Part shown: piece by piece, positions 42,359 to 54,276 of the stretch
How positions within the stretch are numbered: the first letter of the stretch is position 1
Layout: every line of letters starts with the position of its first letter
Notes under the pieces: generated by a model
Told to the model about the DNA's origin: nothing
The model's input: only the letters and a program-made list of their open reading frames with translations
Databases searched by the model: none
Position numbers and translations under genes: made by a program
Source: Rhodohalobacter halophilus
GTDB lineage: Bacteria > Bacteroidota > Rhodothermia > Balneolales > Balneolaceae
Assembly: GCF_001715195.1 (NCBI RefSeq)
Contig: NZ_MDWE01000007.1
Location: 62,001-126,000, forward strand
Reading direction: 5' to 3'
DNA: 64,000 bases

Positions 42359-43450
42359 TCAGGTTGCGGGTACGGTGAGATACTCCAGAAGTTTTTGCTC
42401 CATTTCTTTTGTGCCGGCTAGCGTGGTTCCGGGCTCTTCACTGTAGATATCCGGAGTACGGTAACCTGCATCCAAAACAGCATGGATAGCCGTTTCAATG
42501 TTATTTGCGGCTTCTTCCATATCTAGAGAGTACCTGCACAAAAGAGCGGCAGAAGCAACAGCAGCCAGTGGATTAGCCTCTCCTTTCCCGGCAATATCGG
42601 GGGCAGAGCCGTGTACCGGCTCGTAGAGGCCGTTGCCGTCACCCAGGCTGGCCGAGGGCAGCATGCCAATGGAGCCGGTGAGCATGGCGGCTTCATCACT
42701 GAGGATGTCACCAAACAAGTTGCCGGTTACCATCACATCGAACTGTTTGGGGTTACGAATGAGCTGCATGGCGCAGTTGTCGACCAGCATGTGGGTTAGC
42801 TCTACATCCGGATACTCTGCGGCGACCTCTTCAACAGACTTTCTCCACAATCGCGAGCTCTCGAGTACATTGGCTTTATCAACCGAGCAGACTCGCTTAT
42901 CACGAAGCCGGGCCGCTTCAAACGCTTTGCGTGAAATGCGCTGCACCTCACTTCGGCTATAACTCATCGTGTCGAGGGAGTAGGGGTCACCATTCCCGGC
43001 ACCGTTGGTGCGGGGCCTGCCGAAGTAGATTCCGCCGGTAAGTTCTCGCATGATGAGGATATCGGTTTCTGTTATCACCTCCTTTTTCAGGGTGGAAGCG
43101 CCGGCAAGTGACGGATGCACCCGGATGGGGCGCAGGTTGGCGTAAACCCCCAGCTCTTTCCGAAGTTTTAAAAGAGCAGCTTCCGGGCGCTTTTCAGCGC
43201 TGAGGTCATCCCATTTCGGACCGCCGACAGCGCCCAGAAGCACGAATTTGTGTTGTTTGCAGAGCTCCAGAGTCTCTTGCGTTACCGGTTCACCGTCACG
43301 GTCGTACCCGGCACCCCCAAACGGCCTTTCGATGGTTTCAATCTCTGTTCCGAATGAGCTGCATGCAGCTTTCAGAACGGTTACGGCTGCAGTTGTGACT
43401 TCCGGCCCGATTCCGTCGCCGGGCAGGGTGATGATGGTTTGTTTGGTCAT
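42359..43450 (-). CDS. leuB: 3-isopropylmalate dehydrogenase
   Basis: Oxidatively decarboxylates 3-isopropylmalate in leucine synthesis. In a CimA pathway it also oxidises 3-methylmalate to 2-oxobutyrate for isoleucine. The 363 residues carry GDGIGPEV (10-17), [12 protein letters not shown] (70-81), the substrate-binding ELTGGIYFG (135-143) and [12 protein letters not shown] (about 279-290). It is the last gene of the ilvBN-ilvC-cimA-leuACDB run and is followed by a terminator. Confidence 0.94.
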
Positions 43451-43536: not shown

Positions 43537-44103
43537 CTACCTGGGCACCATTCCGTTTTCGCGGGCGTAGGCAAAGATGCCGCCGGCGTGTACGATGTCG
43601 GCCACACTGCCCAGCGGATTCAGTTTGTAGGTTTCGCCCCGGGTATGGTTGATCAGAGCCGGCACTTCCGAATCGATCTCCAGTTCGTCGCCGGTTCGGA
43701 TCTTCTTGCTGAGGTCCTCCTCACTTTCGTAGGGGGTTAAAAACCCGCCGTCGACCGAATTTCGATAAAAAATCCGTGCATACGAGGGCGAGACAATCGC
43801 CTTGATGCCTGCAATCTCGAGACACGCCGGAGCGTGTTCACGCGAAGAGCCGCACCCAAAATTGTCGCTCGCCACAATGATACTGAACTCGCTTTCGGTC
43901 TCATCTTCACGGGTGAGGGGAATGTTTCCCTGAGGTAATCCCGACTCCTCTGCAGGCACCCCTGACAGGGCGTATTTGCCGTAAAGCTTTCGCTCTTCCG
44001 GATCACTCAGGCTGTAGACCAGGTGGGCGGCCGGTATGATCTGATCGGTGTCTATATTCTTTCCAAGCACAAAGGCTTTGCCTGTTATTGGTTTTGTTTT
44101 CAT
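43537..44103 (-). CDS. leuD: Isopropylmalate isomerase small subunit
   Basis: The small subunit of the aconitase-like isomerase that converts 2- to 3-isopropylmalate (and citramalate to 3-methylmalate) with LeuC. I start it at ATG 44103 (188 residues, normal length). An upstream in-frame ATG at 44157 would add 18 unconserved residues. Conserved features are LGKNIDTDQIIPA (about 13-25), FGCGSSREHAP (about 77-87) and the YARIFYRNS segment. It lies after leuC across a 209-bp gap with a large inverted repeat. Confidence 0.92.
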   Translation of the reverse strand: MKTKPITGKAFVLGKNIDTDQIIPAAHLVYSLSDPEERKLYGKYALSGVPAEESGLPQGNIPLTREDETESEFSIIVASDNFGCGSSREHAPACLEIAGIKAIVSPSYARIFYRNSVDGGFLTPYESEEDLSKKIRTGDELEIDSEVPALINHTRGETYKLNPLGSVADIVHAGGIFAYARENGMVPR

Positions 44104-44142
44104 GGTATAAAAGTAGTTTACATTATTTATGGTCAGTGAAAG

Positions 44143-44312: not shown

Positions 44313-45626
44313 TCAAATCACCGTCTCCTGGATAAAGATCCTTGGATCGGTAATGACTCCGGTTACGGCCGAGGCGGCAACGGTATAGGGGGAGGCCAGG
44401 TAGACCTGTGCGGCTTTCGAGCCCATCCGTCCCGGGTAGTTCCGGTTGGTGGAGGAGATGCAGACCTCCTCTTTGTTCAGCCGGCCAAAGGTGTCTGACG
44501 GGCCTCCCAGGCAGGCCGCACACGATGCATTGCCGATCTTGCATCCCGCCTCGCGAAAGATGTCGATCAGCGGAGTGCCCAGCAGCGTTTCGGTTTCGAG
44601 TCCGCGTGCAATTTCTGTGGTTGCCGGCACAATGTAGGTGTCAATTTTCAGCTTGTGTCCGCGTATAATCTCTGCGGCCGCAACAAAATCGGAAAGCTTC
44701 CCACCCGTACACGACCCGATATAAGCCCGGTCAAGCTTTACGCCTTCCAGCTCTTCGGCAGTGGCTTTATTGTCGGGGCTGTGTGGCTTGGCCACCATGG
44801 GAACCAACTCTTCCAGGTTGTAAAAGTGCTCACTGTGGTACTCTGCATCGGGATCACTATAGAATTTTTCAAATGGTTTGTCGGTTCGTGCCCGGACGTA
44901 CTCTTCGGTCACGCCATCGGGCTCTACAACACCATTTTTACCACCGGCTTCAATCGCCATATTGGTCAGGGTCATCCGGTCTTCCATGGTCAGAGCCTGG
45001 ATTCCGGGGCCTGCAAACTCCATGGTGCGATAGGTCGCGCCGTCTACGCCGATATCGCCGATAATTTTCAGGATGATATCTTTGGCCATCAGGTAGGGGG
45101 GCAGTGAACCGCCCTCGAAAACGAAACGCATTGTCTCGGGCACCTTCACCCAGAGCTTGCCCGTTCCCATGATAAACGCGGCATCAGTATTGCCGATTCC
45201 GGTGGCAAACTGTCCGAATGCACCGGCGGTACATGTATGCGAATCGGTGCCAAACAGAACTTCACCCGGACGGGTAAACCCCTCTTCGGGAAGAGCGACG
45301 TGACAAACGCCTTTGTAGCGGTCGGTTCCCACATCATAAAAGTGGGGCAGATCCTGTTCGGCGGCAAACGCACGCAGCACATCTACATTTCGGTTGGCAT
45401 ATTTATCTTTGGTGAAGATGTAGTGGTCGGGGATGATGACCAGTTTATCTTTGTCCCACACTTTGGCATCATCGCCAAATTCGCGGTGAAAGATAGAGAT
45501 TGCCGGCGGACCGCAAACATCGTGCGTCATCAGTACATCCACGTTGACCCACACGTTATCGCCCGGTTTTACCCGGTCGCGTCCGCTGTGTTTGGCAAGT
45601 ATTTTTTCGGTAAGTGTCATTCCCAT
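44313..45626 (-). CDS. leuC: Isopropylmalate isomerase large subunit
   Basis: The [4Fe-4S] subunit of isopropylmalate isomerase. The three cluster cysteines are visible: one in GSCTGGK (about 303) and two in NASCAACLGG (about 366 and 369). LFGTDSHTCTAGAFGQ near 123-138 is the conserved substrate region. The protein is 437 residues, shorter than the enterobacterial LeuC (about 466) but typical of the archaeal/Bacteroidota-like branch, which often accepts citramalate; this fits the adjacent cimA. Downstream leuD supplies the partner. Confidence 0.93.
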   Translation of the reverse strand: MGMTLTEKILAKHSGRDRVKPGDNVWVNVDVLMTHDVCGPPAISIFHREFGDDAKVWDKDKLVIIPDHYIFTKDKYANRNVDVLRAFAAEQDLPHFYDVGTDRYKGVCHVALPEEGFTRPGEVLFGTDSHTCTAGAFGQFATGIGNTDAAFIMGTGKLWVKVPETMRFVFEGGSLPPYLMAKDIILKIIGDIGVDGATYRTMEFAGPGIQALTMEDRMTLTNMAIEAGGKNGVVEPDGVTEEYVRARTDKPFEKFYSDPDAEYHSEHFYNLEELVPMVAKPHSPDNKATAEELEGVKLDRAYIGSCTGGKLSDFVAAAEIIRGHKLKIDTYIVPATTEIARGLETETLLGTPLIDIFREAGCKIGNASCAACLGGPSDTFGRLNKEEVCISSTNRNYPGRMGSKAAQVYLASPYTVAASAVTGVITDPRIFIQETVI

Positions 45627-45710: not shown

Positions 45711-46904
45711 TCAGCCAGAAGGTGCAACCCTCCCATGAACCTGCGCGGAAAGATCAATCATCATCGACATAATTGAGATTAAATCGTGATCCTCTACGGT
45801 TTTCTGTTCATCAGCCAGTTTGGTAACCTCGCTGTAGACCCGGTTCAGGTCCTCTTTATTGAGATTGTAGCCAAGCTCCTCCAGTTTTTTGCAGAGGGCA
45901 TGGCGGCCGGAGTGTTTGCCGATCACAAGCCGGTTGCAGTTCAATCCGACCGATTCGGGGGTCATAATTTCATAGGTGAGCGGGTTTTTCAGCACACCGT
46001 GCTGGTGGATTCCCGCTTCGTGGGCAAATGCATTTTCGCCGACAATCGCCTTGTTGGGCTGCACTCCTTTTCCGGTGATCTCCGTGAGCATCCGGCTCGA
46101 GGGACAGATCTGAGAGGTGTTCACGGAGGTGTCAAAATTCATATCGCCTAGACGGGTTTTCATCGCCATAACCACCTCTTCGAGTGATGCGTTGCCCGCC
46201 CGTTCGCCGATGCCGTTGATGGTGCACTCAACCTGCCGGGCTCCGTTCCGAACGGCCATAAGCGAGTTGGCAACGGCCAGACCGAGGTCGTTGTGGCAGT
46301 GTACGCTGATCACCGCTTTGTCGATATTGGGGATCTTCTCATGGAGGGTCCGGATCAGTTCGCCGTACTCCCAGGGAAGGGCGTAGCCTACGGTATCGGG
46401 TACGTTAATGGTGGTGGCTCCGGCCTCGATCACCGCCGTAAAGATGTCGGTCAGGAATGTCGGATCGCTCCTGGAAGCATCTTCGGCAGAGAACTCCACA
46501 TCGTCGCAGTGCGACTTCGCATACTCAACCGCTTTGACGGCCGATTCAAGCACCTCTTCGCGTGTCATCTGCAGTTTGTGTTTCATGTGGATGTCGCTGG
46601 TTGCGATGAAGGTGTGAACCCTTGGCTTTGCGGCAAACTCGAGGGCTGAAACGGCCCGCTCCAGATCCTCCTTGCGGGTCCGGCAGAGCGCTGCAACACG
46701 GCTCTCTTTTACGGTTTTGCCGATTTCGCGTACGGTTTGGTAATCTCCTTCGGATGCGATCGGAAACCCGGCCTCAATCACATCGGCACCCAGTAGTTCC
46801 AGCTGTAGGGCAAGGCGCAGCTTTTCACTGCGGTTCATGCTGTAGCCGGGACTCTGCTCTCCATCCCGGAGAGTCGTATCGAAGATGGTGATGTGATTGT
46901 TCAT
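45711..46904 (-). CDS. leuA: 2-isopropylmalate synthase lacking the regulatory domain
   Basis: Condenses acetyl-CoA with 2-oxoisovalerate, the committed step to leucine. The catalytic barrel is complete: [12 protein letters not shown] (9-20), HCHNDLGLA (about 204-212) and [14 protein letters not shown]. The linker with [16 protein letters not shown] is also present. The protein ends at residue 397, just where the leucine-binding C-terminal dimer domain of about 110 residues should begin. The 84-bp gap to leuC holds no remnant of it. It may therefore be insensitive to leucine. A homocitrate synthase/NifV-like identity is excluded mainly by operon context. Confidence 0.88.
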
Positions 46905-46957: not shown

Positions 46958-48574
<1,617 letters not shown>

Positions 48575-48700: not shown

Positions 48701-49732
48701 TCACTCTGCGGGTTCAGGTTCGGGCTGGGAATTCTGGTTGCCCGGAATCCAGTTCATCATCGAGCGGAGCTCTTTTCCAACCTTCTCGATCTTGTGATTG
48801 CCAAGATTGTCGCGCATCCTGTTCAGGTTGGGGAGCTCGTTTTTGTTCTCGGCCATCCACTCATCGGCAAATGCCCCGCTTTGCACCTCTTCGAGAATAT
48901 TCTTCATCCGCTTTTTGGTGTCTGCGTCAATCACACGGCTTCCGCGGGTCAGTCCGCCAAACTCGGCCGTATCACTCACTGAGTAGTACATCCGCTCGAT
49001 CCCGCCTTCATACATCAGGTCGACAATCAGCTTCAGTTCATGAAGGCACTCGAAATAGGCGATTTCAGGCTGGTAACCGGCTTCCACAAGCACTTCAAAT
49101 CCGGCCTTGACCAGTTCGGATGCGCCTCCGCAGAGAACGGCTTGCTCGCCAAACAGGTCGGTCTCCGTCTCCTCTTTGAAGGTGGTTTCAAGAACGCCTG
49201 CACGGGTGCCTCCGATGGCCCTCGCATAGGCCAGTGCGGTGTCTTTGGCCGATCCCGATGCATCGTGGTGCACGGCAAACAGGCAGGGCACGCCCGATCC
49301 CTCGGTAAAGACGCGGCGGACCAGGTGTCCCGGCCCCTTGGGGGCAACCATAAAGACGTCAACGCCTTCAGGCGGCACAATTTGTCCGAACTGGATATTG
49401 AATCCGTGTGCAAACATCAGTGCATTTCCGGGTTCCAGGTGGGGTTCGATACTCTCTTTGTAGACACTGCCCTGATGCTGATCGGGGATCAGGACCATGA
49501 CGATGTCGCCCGCTTTCGCTGCTTCGGCGGTCTCCATGACGGTGAGTCCTTCCTGTTCGGCATCGCTCCATGAGGAGCTCTCCTTTCTGAGGCCGACAAC
49601 GACGCTGACCCCGCTGTCTTTCAGGTTCAGTGCATGTGCGTGCCCCTGGCTTCCGTAGCCGATAACGGCTACCGTTTTATCATTCAAAAGGTCGGGATTT
49701 GCATCTCCGTTGTAATATGTTTTTGCTTTCAT
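48701..49732 (-). CDS. ilvC: Ketol-acid reductoisomerase, class I
   Basis: Isomerises and reduces acetolactate or acetohydroxybutyrate in valine/isoleucine synthesis. The 343 residues are the short class I form. The nucleotide-binding [13 protein letters not shown] is at 25-37, and the GLRKESSSW loop (47-55) suggests NADPH. Metal-binding acidic residues lie in [12 protein letters not shown] (about 191-202) and [11 protein letters not shown] short Pro/Glu-rich tail ends the protein. It lies between ilvN (47-bp gap) and cimA. Confidence 0.95.
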
Positions 49733-49779: not shown

Positions 49780-50304
49780 TCAGTTGATATTCACCGCTCC
49801 CTGAAACTCCCGTTTCAGCGCCACGCTTCCGGTACGCGACATCTCGGTGATGCCGTACGGTTTCAGGACCTTGATCATGGCATCCACCTTATCGGTATTG
49901 CCGGTCACCTCAAGGGCCAGTTTGTCGTCTGTGATGTCGATCACCTTCGCTTTAAAAGCCTGGGCAATGAGCATAATTTCGGGCCTGCCCGCCTTGGCAG
50001 TTGAAACTTTCACGATGGCCAGCTCGCGTTCGATACACTTTTTGTGAGTCAGGTCGGTCACTTTCACCACATCGATCACATTGTGAAGGTGCTTGCTGAT
50101 CTGCTCTACGGTCGATTCATCGCCATAGGTGGTGATGGTGATTCGTGCCATTCCCTGTTCAGCCTCTGAGGCAAAGGTGACGCTTTCCAGTTCAAACCCC
50201 TTTCCGCTGAAGATCCCGAGGATCCTCGAAAAGGTGTTCAGGTTGTGCTTTACCAGCACCGACAGGGTGTGCCGGGAGTCTTTAGTTACGATTTGGGTAC
50301 TCAT
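49780..50304 (-). CDS. ilvN: Acetolactate synthase small (regulatory) subunit
   Basis: The regulatory subunit that binds valine and activates IlvB. I start it at ATG 50304, whose ATGA overlaps the ilvB stop; an upstream in-frame start at 50313 adds three residues. The 174-residue protein has an N-terminal ACT domain ([21 protein letters not shown]) and the C-terminal ALS_ss_C domain. Full-length architecture indicates normal valine feedback. The ATGA overlap implies translational coupling to ilvB. The IlvH-type label would be equally correct. Confidence 0.93.
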
Positions 50305-52085
50305 TGGCCACACTCCTCATCTGATTCTACCATTTCGTTCAGGGCTGCGCCGGCCGGCACCATCGGATAGCAGTTTTCAGTTTCAACAACCCGCAGGTCC
50401 ATCAGCACGGGTTTGTCTTTGATCTTCATCGCATCGTTGAGCACCTGCTGCATTTCAGCCGGGGTGGTGGCTCTCATGCCGACGGCACCATAGCACTCGG
50501 CCATTTTGACGAAATCGGGGTTGTTGGATCCGAAGACGGAATAGCTGGTTCGGTTGCCGTAGAAGAGCTGCTGCCACTGGCGCACCATGCCGAGGCAGTT
50601 GTTGTTCATCAGTGCGATCTTGACGGGGATGTTGTACTCAACGGCTGTGGCCAGCTCGCAAGAGAGCATCTGAAAGCCGCCGTCGCCGGTAATGCAGACC
50701 ACTTCGCGATCGGGACAGGCCAGGGCTGCGCCCATAGCTGCCGGAAATCCGAAGCCCATCGTGCCGAGCCCGCCCGAAGAGATCCACGATCGGGGATGGT
50801 TGAATCTGTAGTGCTGGGCCGCCCACATCTGGTGCTGGCCTACATCGGTTACCACAATGGCATTGCCTCCGGTTACTTCGGAGATCATTTTTACCATATG
50901 CTGCGGGTAGATGCAGTTGTCAGCTTTGGGAACCTTGAGCGGGTGCTCCCTTTGCCAAGTGTGGATGGTATCCCACCAATCTGTGGTATCGGGCGGGCCG
51001 GCTAGTTTATCGATGGCCGGAATCACATGTTTGACATCACCCACGATCGGTACCTCAACGGGTACGTTTTTGCCGATACAGGAGGGGTCAATGTCGATAT
51101 GGATTTTCCGGGATTTTTGAGAAAAACCGTCGAGGCGTCCGGTGACACGGTCGTCGAACCGGGCCCCCACGGCAAGCAGTACGTCGCATTCGGTCATGGC
51201 CATGTTGGCCGCCCAGGTGCCGTGCATCCCCAGCATGCCGAGCGACTGGGGCTTGCTTTCGGGAAATGCACCCAGTCCCATCAGGGTGGTAGTCACCGGG
51301 ATATTCAGGCGCTCGGCAAATGCGGTCACCTCTTCCCACGCTTCACCCAGAATGGCACCGCCACCCACATAGATGAGTGGCTTTTTGGCCTCACTGAGCA
51401 TTTCTGCCGCTTTGGCAATCTGGGTTCCATGGCCCTGAATGTGTGGTTTGAAACTGGGGATCTCCACCTTCTTCATTCCGGAGTAGCGCGCAGGGGTGTT
51501 CAGCATATCCTTCGGTAGATCGACCAAAACCGGACCCGGACGGCCGTTGGTGGCAATATGAAACGCTTCGCGTATGACATGTTCCAGTTCATCCACATCC
51601 CTGACCAGGTAGTTCTGTTTGGTGATTGGGCGGGTGATCCCCACGATGTCGGCCTCCTGAAAAGCGTCGTTGCCGATCACTCCGGTGGGTACCTGTCCGG
51701 TAAAGACGACCAGCGGAATCGAATCCATCATTGCCGTGGCGATACCGGTTACCGTGTTGGTGCCTCCGGGCCCCGAGGTGGCCAGCACCACGCCGGGTTT
51801 ACCGGTTGCCCGCGCATACCCGTCGGCTGCATGGGTGCCCGACTGTTCATGGCGAATCAGTACGTGGTTCAGGTCGTGATTGTCAAAAAGGGTGTCGTAT
51901 ACCGGGAGAACCGCACCGCCCGGATATCCGAAAATCGTCTCGACTCCCAGGTCGGCCAGGGTTTTGATAAGGATTTCCGCTCCGTTATGCGGACAATCTT
52001 CCGGTTTTTCTATTGCCTGGAGTGAAGAGGGCTGAGCGTTCTTTTTTGCTGTGGAAGTGGGTTGGTTTGATTTCATTTGCCTCAT
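50301..52085 (-). CDS. ilvB: Acetolactate synthase large subunit
   Basis: A thiamine-diphosphate enzyme that makes 2-acetolactate or 2-aceto-2-hydroxybutyrate, the first shared step to Val, Leu and Ile. The 594 residues show the catalytic Glu80 (IRHEQSGTHAA) and the TPP-binding GDGGF near 465 with NNN about 27 residues later. An in-frame ATG at 52076 may be the true start; GAGGC just upstream could serve as its Shine-Dalgarno. It is the first structural gene of the operon and begins 12 bases after the 3' arm of the leader stem at 52097-52110. Confidence 0.95.
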   Translation of the reverse strand: MRQMKSNQPTSTAKKNAQPSSLQAIEKPEDCPHNGAEILIKTLADLGVETIFGYPGGAVLPVYDTLFDNHDLNHVLIRHEQSGTHAADGYARATGKPGVVLATSGPGGTNTVTGIATAMMDSIPLVVFTGQVPTGVIGNDAFQEADIVGITRPITKQNYLVRDVDELEHVIREAFHIATNGRPGPVLVDLPKDMLNTPARYSGMKKVEIPSFKPHIQGHGTQIAKAAEMLSEAKKPLIYVGGGAILGEAWEEVTAFAERLNIPVTTTLMGLGAFPESKPQSLGMLGMHGTWAANMAMTECDVLLAVGARFDDRVTGRLDGFSQKSRKIHIDIDPSCIGKNVPVEVPIVGDVKHVIPAIDKLAGPPDTTDWWDTIHTWQREHPLKVPKADNCIYPQHMVKMISEVTGGNAIVVTDVGQHQMWAAQHYRFNHPRSWISSGGLGTMGFGFPAAMGAALACPDREVVCITGDGGFQMLSCELATAVEYNIPVKIALMNNNCLGMVRQWQQLFYGNRTSYSVFGSNNPDFVKMAECYGAVGMRATTPAEMQQVLNDAMKIKDKPVLMDLRVVETENCYPMVPAGAALNEMVESDEECGQ

Positions 52086-52096
52086 GGGTATAGATT

Positions 52097-52170
52097 ACCC
52101 GCCAGAGGTTGTCAGTTGAAATCGCAATGTTAAGAAGGGAAAGGATTTTGGCTTTTAACCTCTGGCGGGT
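52097..52170 (-). promoter_or_regulatory. ilv leader stem: perfect 14-bp arms before ilvB
   Basis: On the transcript, the 5' arm ACCCGCCAGAGGTT (52170-52157) and the 3' arm AACCTCTGGCGGGT (52110-52097) are perfectly complementary across a 46-base pyrimidine-rich loop. The 5' arm begins four bases after the leader-peptide stop, and the 3' arm ends 11 bases before the first ilvB ATG. There is no U-run after it. It is therefore unlikely to be an intrinsic terminator and would more probably block ilvB initiation or expose a Rho site. Confidence 0.65.
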
Positions 52171-52174
52171 GGGA

Positions 52175-52351
52175 TTATCTAATAATTAGGTTTAGAATTA
52201 GAATGCCAGAGATTAGAGATAGAATTAGAATATCAATAATAATACTGATGTCAATAATGACGTCAGAAATTAGAATTCCAATTCCCGCGATAATAGAGAG
52301 TGATGCAAAAAGAACCTGAATCAGGCAGGCAGCAGACAGAGCATGAGCCAT
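52175..52351 (-). CDS. ilv operon leader peptide, Ile/Leu/Val-rich
   Basis: A 58-residue frame starts at ATG 52351 and stops at TAA 52177-52175, ahead of ilvB. It contains 19 Ile, 11 Leu and 2 Val. Of the last 40 residues, 26 are Ile, Leu or Val, largely ATT and CTA codons in runs such as SIIIDILILSLISGILILNL. This matches the logic of leader peptides that sense charged tRNA for branched-chain amino acids. The frame is AT-rich, unlike the GC-rich structural genes. A GGAG lies two bases from the ATG, short for a Shine-Dalgarno. No role beyond regulation is suggested. Confidence 0.72.
   Translation of the reverse strand: MAHALSAACLIQVLFASLSIIAGIGILISDVIIDISIIIDILILSLISGILILNLIIR
52205..52214 (-). 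promoter_or_regulatory. Alternative pairing segment inside the ilv leader
   Basis: On the transcript, AATCTCTGGC spans leader codons 46-49. It can pair over 10 bp (one G-U) with GCCAGAGGTT, which is the 5' arm of the leader stem (52166-52157). That pairing excludes the 14-bp stem. The segment is therefore the anti-blocking partner expected of an attenuator. Confidence 0.55.
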
Positions 52352-52363
52352 CTCTCCGGAGAG
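52352..52363. promoter_or_regulatory. 12-bp palindrome before the ilv leader start
   Basis: CTCTCCGGAGAG is a perfect palindrome directly abutting the leader ATG on the transcript. It contains the only Shine-Dalgarno-like GGAG. It could be an operator or a hairpin that tempers leader translation. Confidence 0.35.
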
Positions 52364-52440
52364 GAGATCGGCTGAGCAGATGCTATGTGAAATGGCTGTT
52401 GTCAAGCTGCGCTTTTGGTTTGTTGTTTATCGCTTCAAAA

Positions 52441-52469
52441 AAGCTATACAATGGATTTTGTCATGTCAA
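52441..52469 (-). promoter_or_regulatory. Probable promoter of the ilv-leu operon
   Basis: On the minus strand TTGACA, 17 bases, TAGCTT. Read as a Bacteroidota promoter it is TTG, 20 bases, TAGCTTTT, one mismatch from TAnnTTTG. Transcription would begin near 52434, about 80 bases before the leader ATG. A second TTGACA at 52405-52400 has a poor -10. Confidence 0.55.
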
Positions 52470-52549
52470 GATTTTTTTTAAAAAAATGTTTGAATATCAT
52501 TAAGACGAAATCATGAATTTATAAAAAGCGCTTCCATTGAAATTAAAAT

Positions 52550-52596: not shown

Positions 52597-54276
52597 ATGA
52601 CTGCAAAAATCAATAAATTTAGCTCAAGATTAACTGAAAGTGAATCACAAGTTGGATCCCGGGCAATGCTCTACGCTACCGGCCTGAGCGAGGATGACAT
52701 GAAAAAGGCCCAGGTGGGCATTGCAAGTACCGGCTGGGATGGCAATCCGTGCAACATGCACCTGAACGGATTGGCCGGTGTAGTCAAGAAGGGAGTATGG
52801 GAGGAGGGGATGGTTGGTTTTGTCTTCCACTCGATCGGGGTGAGCGACGGGATTTCAATGGGTACCCAGGGAATGAAATACTCCCTGCCATCGAGGGATA
52901 TCATTGCCGATTCGATCGAGACGGTGATGCGGGCACAGTGGTACGATGCCAACATCTCGGTGGTTGGCTGCGACAAGAACATGCCCGGATCGGTGATGGC
53001 GATGGCCCGGGTGAACCGTCCGTCGATTATGGTGTATGGGGGCACCATCAGCCCGGGCGAGCTTGACGGACAGAAACTGGATATTGTCTCGGCGTTTGAG
53101 TCGTACGGGCAGTACCTCTCAGAAGAGATTACCAAAGAGCAGATGCACCGGGTGCTGAAGCACGCCTGTCCTACAGCCGGCGCGTGCGGCGGGATGTATA
53201 CGGCCAATACGATGGCGTCTGCTATCGAGACACTCGGTATGAGCCTGCCGTTCAGTTCCTCCATCCCCGCAGTGAACCGGGAGAAGCAGAAAGAGTGTGA
53301 GCGGGCCGGCAAGGCGATCCGCCGGCTGCTCGAAGAGGATATTAAACCGCTCGATATCATCACCAGAACCTCGCTCGAGAATGCGGTGGCGATGATCATT
53401 GCACTGGGCGGGTCGACTAACGCCGTCATGCACATGCTGGCGATTGCCCATGCGGCCGGAGTCGATTTTACGATCGACGATTTCCAGGCGGTGAGCGACC
53501 GGGCCCCGTTTCTGGCCGACCTGAAGCCGAGCGGAAAGTATGTGATGGAAGATCTCTACAATGTGGGCGGGGTGCCTGCGGTTCAGAAGCTGCTGCTTGA
53601 GGAGGGGCTCCTCAGCGGCGACTGCCTCACCGTTACGGGCAAGACCCTGGCCGAGAATGTAGCCGATGTACCGGGCCTGTTTGAAGAGCAGAATATTATC
53701 CATCCGGTCAGTAGCCCCGTCAAGAAGACCGGCCACCTGCAGATCCTCTACGGCAACCTGTCGCCCGAAGGGAGTGTGGCCAAGATCACGGGCAAGGAGG
53801 GGACACGGTTCACCGGCCCGGCCGTTGTGTTTGAATCGGAAGAGGATGCCCTGAAAGGCATTCAGGCCGGAAAAGTGAAAAAAGGAAATGTGGTGGTAAT
53901 TCGCTATGAAGGCCCCAAAGGCGGCCCGGGCATGCGCGAGATGCTGTCGATCACCTCGGCCATTATGGGGGCCGGGCTTGGCAACGATGTGGCGCTGATT
54001 ACCGACGGACGCTTTTCGGGCGGCACCCATGGGTTTGTGATCGGCCACGTTACCCCCGAGGCGCAGCTGGGCGGTGCGATCGCGCTGATTCAGAACGGCG
54101 ACACCATCACCATCGACGCCGATGAGCGGATCCTGAATGTAGGCCTGACCGAAGAGGAGCTCGACACCCGCCGCAAACAGTGGACGGCCCCGGAGCTCAA
54201 GATCAAAAGCGGTTCACTCTACAAATACGCACAGCTGGTTTCAACCGCGAGTAAAGGGTGCGTGACGGATGGGTAG
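52597..54276 (+). CDS. ilvD: Dihydroxy-acid dehydratase
   Basis: An iron-sulfur enzyme that dehydrates dihydroxy-isovalerate/-methylvalerate to the 2-oxo acids for Val, Leu and Ile. The 559 residues show the three cluster-region cysteines: one in [10 protein letters not shown] (about 126) and two in CPTAGACGG (about 191 and 197). The catalytic-loop RFSGGTHG lies near 472-479. It is transcribed divergently from the ilvB operon across a 511-bp gap. By eye it is one of the most GC-rich genes in the window. Confidence 0.95.

Follow-up and report, generated by a model that had tools for sequence, protein, structure and literature searches.

Ribosome-mediated attenuation of amino-acid operons has been described mostly as a choice between a terminator and an antiterminator. 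The ilvL and leuL leaders of E. coli are transcription attenuators of this kind, and leuL uses rare Leu CUA codons. The attenuator survey of Vitreschak et al. (2004) may extend to Bacteroidetes/Chlorobi.

Upstream ORFs of ilvB are known in Corynebacterium and other bacteria (PMC10272879), and for Flavobacterium psychrophilum, also a member of the Bacteroidota, there are hints of leader peptides in front of amino-acid operons (PMC9723704). For the actinobacterial LEU element and for translational T-boxes, the RNA upstream of leuA or ileS has been proposed to mask the Shine-Dalgarno sequence (PMC1262725). LEU folds into a pseudoknot whose Shine-Dalgarno box is paired to the Leu codons themselves, and it is thought to act independently of leader translation, while T-boxes bind tRNA directly (PMC1262725).

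Here we describe an element upstream of ilvB in the window (the whole 64-kb stretch of DNA analysed) and in related genomes of the order Balneolales. It combines a leader ORF with four RNA strands, which we call A, B, C and D. Like ilvL, leuL and the Corynebacterium ilvB-II motif (PMC10272879), it has a short Ile/Leu/Val-rich ORF upstream of ilv genes and mutually exclusive RNA pairings around the leader stop codon. Unlike those systems, which end in a U-tract intrinsic terminator, it is without one; its last pairing is predicted to mask the ilvB start codon, and its leader is longer (about 76 codons) and TTG-started. The ilvB-OMG and ilvB motifs (PMC10272879) share with it the uORFs rich in branched-chain codons, but a transcriptional output is assumed for them, and no Rfam model matched the Balneolales element. 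With LEU it shares a run of Leu codons and a proposed Shine-Dalgarno masking, although here it is the untranslated strand C that pairs with the start site, and neither LEU nor the T-box has the A-B-C-D arrangement. In the ermC and ermB translational attenuators (PMC8274638 for ermB), stalling of a ribosome in the leader rearranges hairpins so that the following gene's ribosome-binding site becomes accessible, which is what our model predicts here; erm stalling is drug-induced, whereas the signal here would be scarce charged Ile/Leu tRNA, acting on a biosynthetic operon.

Leader peptide and promoter upstream of ilvB

On the minus strand, TTGACA (52469-52464), a 17-nt spacer and TAGCTT (52446-52441) precede a frame running from ATG 52351 to TAA 52177-52175, which has 58 codons with 19 Ile, 11 Leu and 2 Val (16 ATT and 7 CTA codons among them). 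The preliminary description of this DNA had reported this promoter-like sequence, the content of the frame and the position of the stem behind it, all of which agree with ours base for base, and had proposed that ilvB is preceded by an unannotated leader peptide rich in Ile/Leu/Val. The Ile/Leu/Val richness is far beyond chance: the densest 40-codon stretch of the leader region holds 27 such codons, and the maximum on either strand was 22 per 40 codons in 4,000 sequences simulated from this region with first- or second-order Markov models.

We collected the ilvB upstream regions of congeners, sister genera and other Balneolales families. It turned out that the leader frame precedes ilvB in all congeners having upstream DNA (20 of 20), and a leader, 70-80 codons long in Balneolales, was found before ilvB at 57 examined loci from different families of the order and in a single genome beyond it. 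In congeners the frame ends in SILISGILILNLIIR or close variants directly before the stop, and the tails in other families of the order read GIIILIIDLLIGIL, ILSGILLISLIILS or SGLLILIK. An alignment of such upstream regions had been put forward earlier as a check on the leader; in it the frame is conserved and third positions vary most in the tail, where differences over the last 14 codons are about three times as frequent at third positions as at first or second ones. Within these last 14 codons, CTA accounts for 209 of 228 Leu codons over the 57 loci, against a share of 1.6% of Leu codons in the ilvB genes of the same loci and 4.4% in the genes of the window. The leader proposed earlier is upheld, with its strong preference for ATT and the rare CTA kept in relatives, and the comparison identifies the frame as a conserved leader peptide.

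The length of 58 codons given in the preliminary description has to be corrected. ATG 52351 is missing in nearly all relatives, and the ORF extends further 5' to an in-frame TTG at 52405, which gives 76 codons. The corresponding TTG is invariant (20 of 20 congeners) and is followed in most of them by a conserved start like M(S/T)TAITHT. The pattern TTG-N18..22-TAnnTTT also occurs in the region upstream of ilvB in all 20 congeners, lying 31-34 nt upstream of the invariant TTG in 18 of them and 48 and 59 nt in the other two. Because of this invariance and this spacing from a conserved promoter, the sequences place the leader start at TTG 52405 and not at ATG 52351, with a length of about 76 codons. 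A stronger-looking promoter match inside the ORF (52254-52227) is likely due to chance, and that stretch of the ORF is not conserved.

The ORF could also encode a functional small hydrophobic (membrane) protein, with the downstream structure unrelated to it. Its about 76 very hydrophobic residues, the kept frame and the conserved N-terminal M(S/T)TAITHT would suit such a protein; yet the middle of the leader evolves fast (45-59% differences per codon position) with only the Ile/Leu/Val content kept, the conserved residues fall on strand A, the CTA bias has no function in a protein, and no Pfam match was found for the leader peptide. We regard a membrane protein as very unlikely.

Table 1. Features of the ilvB leader region and of the neighbouring genes in the window
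Feature	Position	Strand	Remarks
Promoter TTGACA-N17-TAGCTT	52441..52469	-	Also matches the Bacteroidota form TTG-N20-TAnnTTT
ilvL-like leader peptide ORF, 76 codons, TTG start, MTTAISHSICSADLLSGEMAHALSAACLIQVLFASLSIIAGIGILISDVIIDISIIIDILILSLISGILILNLIIR	52175..52405	-	Frame open in all congeners and in other families
Strand A, CTAATCTCTGGC, within leader codons ..L-I-S-G..	52205..52216	-	Partner: B
Strand B, ACCCGCCAGAGGTT, after leader stop	52157..52170	-	Partner: A or C
Strand C, AACCTCTGGCGGGT (52110-52097) and 5' extension containing GATTTCA	52097..52124	-	Partner: B or D
Strand D, TATACCCATGAGGCAAATGAAATC	52069..52092	-	Partner: C; predicted hairpin and covariation
ilvB, acetolactate synthase large subunit	50301..52076	-	TIGR00118 equivalog
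ilvN, acetolactate synthase small subunit	49780..50313	-	TIGR00119 / NF008864
ilvC, ketol-acid reductoisomerase	48701..49732	-	TIGR00465
cimA, citramalate synthase	46958..48574	-	TIGR00977 equivalog
leuA, 2-isopropylmalate synthase	45711..46904	-	TIGR00973 above cut-off
leuC, isopropylmalate isomerase large subunit	44313..45626	-	NF001614 and TIGR01343 subfamily matches above cut-off; function by context
leuD, isopropylmalate isomerase small subunit	43537..44106	-	TIGR02084/TIGR02087 below cut-off; function by context
leuB, 3-isopropylmalate dehydrogenase	42359..43450	-	TIGR00169
ilvD, divergent, shares intergenic region with ilvB leader	52597..54276	+	TIGR00110

Competing pairings around the leader stop codon

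Strand B and the core of strand C form a perfect 14-bp inverted repeat, which starts 4-5 nt past the leader stop and ends shortly before two possible ilvB start codons, ATG 52085, found in the window only, and ATG 52076, which is conserved among relatives. The stem had been noted before; it is indeed perfect and conserved, but it is only one of three competing pairings. Both A and C match B, and C matches D too, so that the pairings share strands and are mutually exclusive. Strand D contains the Shine-Dalgarno-like GAG(G) of ilvB, the start codon (52076-52074) and codons 2-3, and the C:D hairpin predicted in the window (GAUUUCA..CCUC..GGGUA / UACCC..GAGG..UGAAAUC) includes the ilvB AUG.

All three pairings are recurrent. 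Strand B lies 8-16 nt past the first base of the leader stop in nearly all of the 57 loci, and folding of nearly every locus predicts the B:C hairpin. Tested against dinucleotide shuffles, the A:B duplex pairs better (p<=0.05) in 16 of 21 congeners; C:D does so against shuffled downstream DNA, again in 16 of 21. In register controls, 96% of cells are paired for A:B and 93% for B:C, against at most 51% when either is slid, and 77.5% for C:D against at most 44%.

Strands A, B and C are nearly invariant within the genus, and covariation comes from other genera. Because A and B are too constant within the genus to co-vary, we exchanged strands between seven groups and scored all 5,040 assignments; the groups' own pairing was the best of the 5,040 permutations for A:B and likewise for B:C. 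For instance, A:B is UCAGGAAU/AUUCCUGA in genomes of family f5 and UUGACCU/AGGUCAA in those of family f3. For C:D, 12 both-side changes were found over 34 sequences of the window's family (e.g. GGCGG/CCGC versus GGUAG/CUACC), and none of 500 shuffles reached either the covariation score or this number of both-side changes. A first count of C:D had covered the 21 congeners alone, and the result became decisive once sister genera were added. RNAalifold on a cross-family alignment gave 4 pairs only, as neither the loops nor the strand registers are constant from family to family, and this analysis was superseded by the strand-swap permutation and the family-level alignment. Sequence and comparison together show a leader, its start, its codon bias and three co-varying, competing pairings.

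A strongly conserved, structured 5' region before a biosynthetic operon might also be a riboswitch, a T-box or a protein-bound RNA carrying an incidental frame. But Rfam gave no match at gathering score in the 64-kb window and only unrelated chance matches at E<=10 for the leader, and the codons and the three pairings already explain the conserved elements. Such an RNA is extremely improbable.

To search for the element more widely, a covariance model was built from the leader tail and B:C and run against 129 genomes of the order. It matches 57 of them (20 of 39 genera), and the examined matches with E below 1e-3 all lie before ilvB, except for antisense echoes of the same place. Some weak matches at other places in the genome or phylum (G000:C59, G000:C8, G004:C44, G064 and G117) are without an ilv gene or an Ile/Leu-rich frame and were taken as chance. 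Outside the order, the weak match in L187 lies upstream of ilvB, with a leader MSDKLHIQ...LRGILSLILS and B/C of CUUCAGAGGUU/CGACCUCUGAAG. Before ilvB of a Rhodothermus MAG (L140) there is a frame rich in Leu and Ile, together with a GGUCAAUCCC/GGGGAUUGACC hairpin, perhaps a distant version of the element. Besides, an Ile/Leu-rich frame lies about 197 nt before ilvB in an Ignavibacteriae MAG (L114), with a hairpin and a T8 run behind it; it may be related to this leader but of the terminator type.

Termination versus translation initiation

The leader ORF, the hairpin close to its stop and the competing strands have the geometry of a classical transcription attenuator, as in E. coli ilvGMEDA and leu, in which B:C (or C:D) would be the terminator hairpin and leader stalling would prevent its formation. 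Related Balneolales do have a leader with a U-tract terminator before ilvD. We read four members of the order with a different ilv layout. Three of them, which have an ilvD-ilvB operon (L216, L218 and L219; two of the window's family and one of another), carry an E. coli-like leader, for example MLSVIISLVIIQIIGIPYHPGKAL, and a U-tract hairpin directly before ilvD; in the fourth the terminator is present. The order therefore harbours ilv attenuators of two kinds.

None of the three stems (B:C, A:B and C:D) has a U-tract behind it, either in the window or in the relatives read. Since canonical U-tract terminators occur in this genome and order, the lack is meaningful; a strong one in the window (63869-63838, minus strand, upstream of hisG) has a 13-bp stem and a T-rich tail, TTTATTTTTA. 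As a U-tract is missing in every relative read, we rejected B:C as a terminator, and the 14-bp stem is instead one state of the proposed four-strand switch. A terminator-like match inside the ORF (52330-52314) is at chance level, with 5 pairs in the unconserved ORF body. Hence the full analogy with enterobacterial attenuators, drawn in the preliminary description, is not supported: of the hallmarks of ilvL/leuL/trpL-type leaders, the enrichment of end-product codons and exclusive pairings among which a ribosome could select are present, and the U-tract terminator is not. We consider a classical attenuator quite unlikely here, and the output is likely translation initiation.

As in erm-type attenuators, the C:D hairpin covers the Shine-Dalgarno-like site and the AUG of the next gene, and it is supported by covariation; erm-type stalling in the leader with derepression is predicted. 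In our judgement the element is probably a ribosome-mediated attenuator acting mainly on translation initiation of ilvB. The mRNA would start about 25 nt before the TTG-initiated leader of ~76 codons, rich in Ile and Leu (the latter as rare CTA). When charged Ile and Leu tRNAs are plentiful, ribosomes would run to the leader stop, where B is covered or paired with A; with B unavailable, C:D would pair and bury the ilvB Shine-Dalgarno-like site, AUG and codons 2-3 (OFF). When either tRNA is scarce, a ribosome would stall on the terminal ATT/CTA codons and cover A but not B, and the uncovered B would capture C and free the ilvB start (ON). We had also considered A:B as the ON state, and gave this up when C:D was found to cover the ilvB AUG. 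Stalling, the direction of the response and polarity on ilvN-ilvC-cimA-leuACDB are what we infer from this arrangement.

We modelled the switch by masking a ribosome footprint codon by codon and computing the unpaired fraction of the ilvB start region. With C:D alone the start is mostly paired, and it opens with B free and A masked. In the window, a ribosome stalled at any of codons -16 to -4 leaves 0.62-0.70 of the start region unpaired, and one placed from codon -3 to the stop leaves 0.32-0.42 (for example, 0.69 at codon -5 versus 0.33 at the stop). With no ribosome the region is about 0.53-0.58 unpaired, i.e. only half closed, and B:C is the most stable fold of the window sequence, the folding being at equilibrium and not co-transcriptional. 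Over 34 genomes, the difference between stall and stop is +0.18 on average and exceeds 0.05 in 26 of 34, and it falls to +0.01 with B shuffled (Wilcoxon p=3.6e-6). Several sister genomes (L078, L079, L082, L087 and L088) show no modelled effect or the reverse. The predicted behaviour is that scarce charged Ile/Leu tRNA exposes the ilvB start and plenty hides it.

In families f3 and f5, the distance from C to the ilvB start is 70-230 nt, and a second small ORF has its beginning at the place that ilvB takes in the window; direct masking of the ilvB start therefore cannot be the full explanation in these families. Second short ORFs were seen 36-66 nt past the start of C in L024, L025, L026, L028, L029, L031, L033 and L036 (f3/f4/f5); they often have Cys pairs (e.g. 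MNHPYTKQHARKPQACDCFIYGCCI, VNKIKQHNKKISCCSRNRLKRIHCDSLPFIPKQTT) and are alike between some relatives.

An alternative output is Rho-dependent: leader structures would decide Rho loading on untranslated leader RNA, and polarity would follow from translational masking, either of ilvB itself or, in other families, of the second small ORF. This would fit f3 and f5, whose hairpin, at that distance from ilvB, lies in untranslated or short-ORF RNA without terminators, and translational masking would normally entail Rho polarity. In the window's family, though, C keeps a nearly constant distance of 32-36 nt from the ilvB AUG and is paired with it, and Rho loading would need neither. A Rho-dependent attenuator seems unlikely, and we favour control of translation initiation.

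Putative operon genes and neighbours

The identities of ilvB, ilvN, ilvC, cimA, leuA, leuB and ilvD were assigned by NCBIfam. The divergent ilvD start lies opposite ilvB in 11 of the 13 sister-genus loci reaching that far. It is from co-directional gene order that leader control would extend to cimA and leuACDB. LeuA (397 aa) is without the C-terminal LeuA_dimer allosteric domain, Pfam giving only HMGL-like and HCS_D2, and the domain is present in CimA, its neighbour. Judged from these domains, LeuA may escape feedback by leucine. With the regulatory domain missing, a large share of leucine control may fall to the leader.

Another candidate leader was observed upstream of hisG (ATG 63588) in the window. 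It is a putative histidine leader peptide, MKFTNPYISFSHHSHHGDLGNSVHHHH, on the minus strand at 63753-63670, with a GTG start, 8 His in 27 and a stop 84 nt before hisG. No terminator was found between this candidate and hisG. His-rich frames, ending for example in HHHHGSHGHFVH before the stop, were seen at roughly this position in the other congeners read, and some further families have them too.

Significance

The preliminary description had regarded such a device controlling cimA and leu genes in a Balneolota-like genome as new. Leader peptides had already been suggested (PMC9723704) and ilvB uORFs were known (PMC10272879) elsewhere, and it is the translational four-strand version in Balneolales that looks new. 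Reading the frame as a leader accounts for a conserved unannotated ORF. The analysis gives comparative support for a codon-stalling sensor that acts on translation initiation, in a phylum that has hardly been studied. As relatives have the terminator version, the evolution of transcriptional and of translational attenuation can be compared directly within one pathway. The chances seem about even that Balneolales evolved a distinct class of amino-acid attenuator beside their terminator-keeping relatives, in which leader stalling would rearrange A-B-C-D and thereby act on translation initiation of the first gene, and which elsewhere stands before a Cys-containing small ORF, suggesting a leader-ORF relay.
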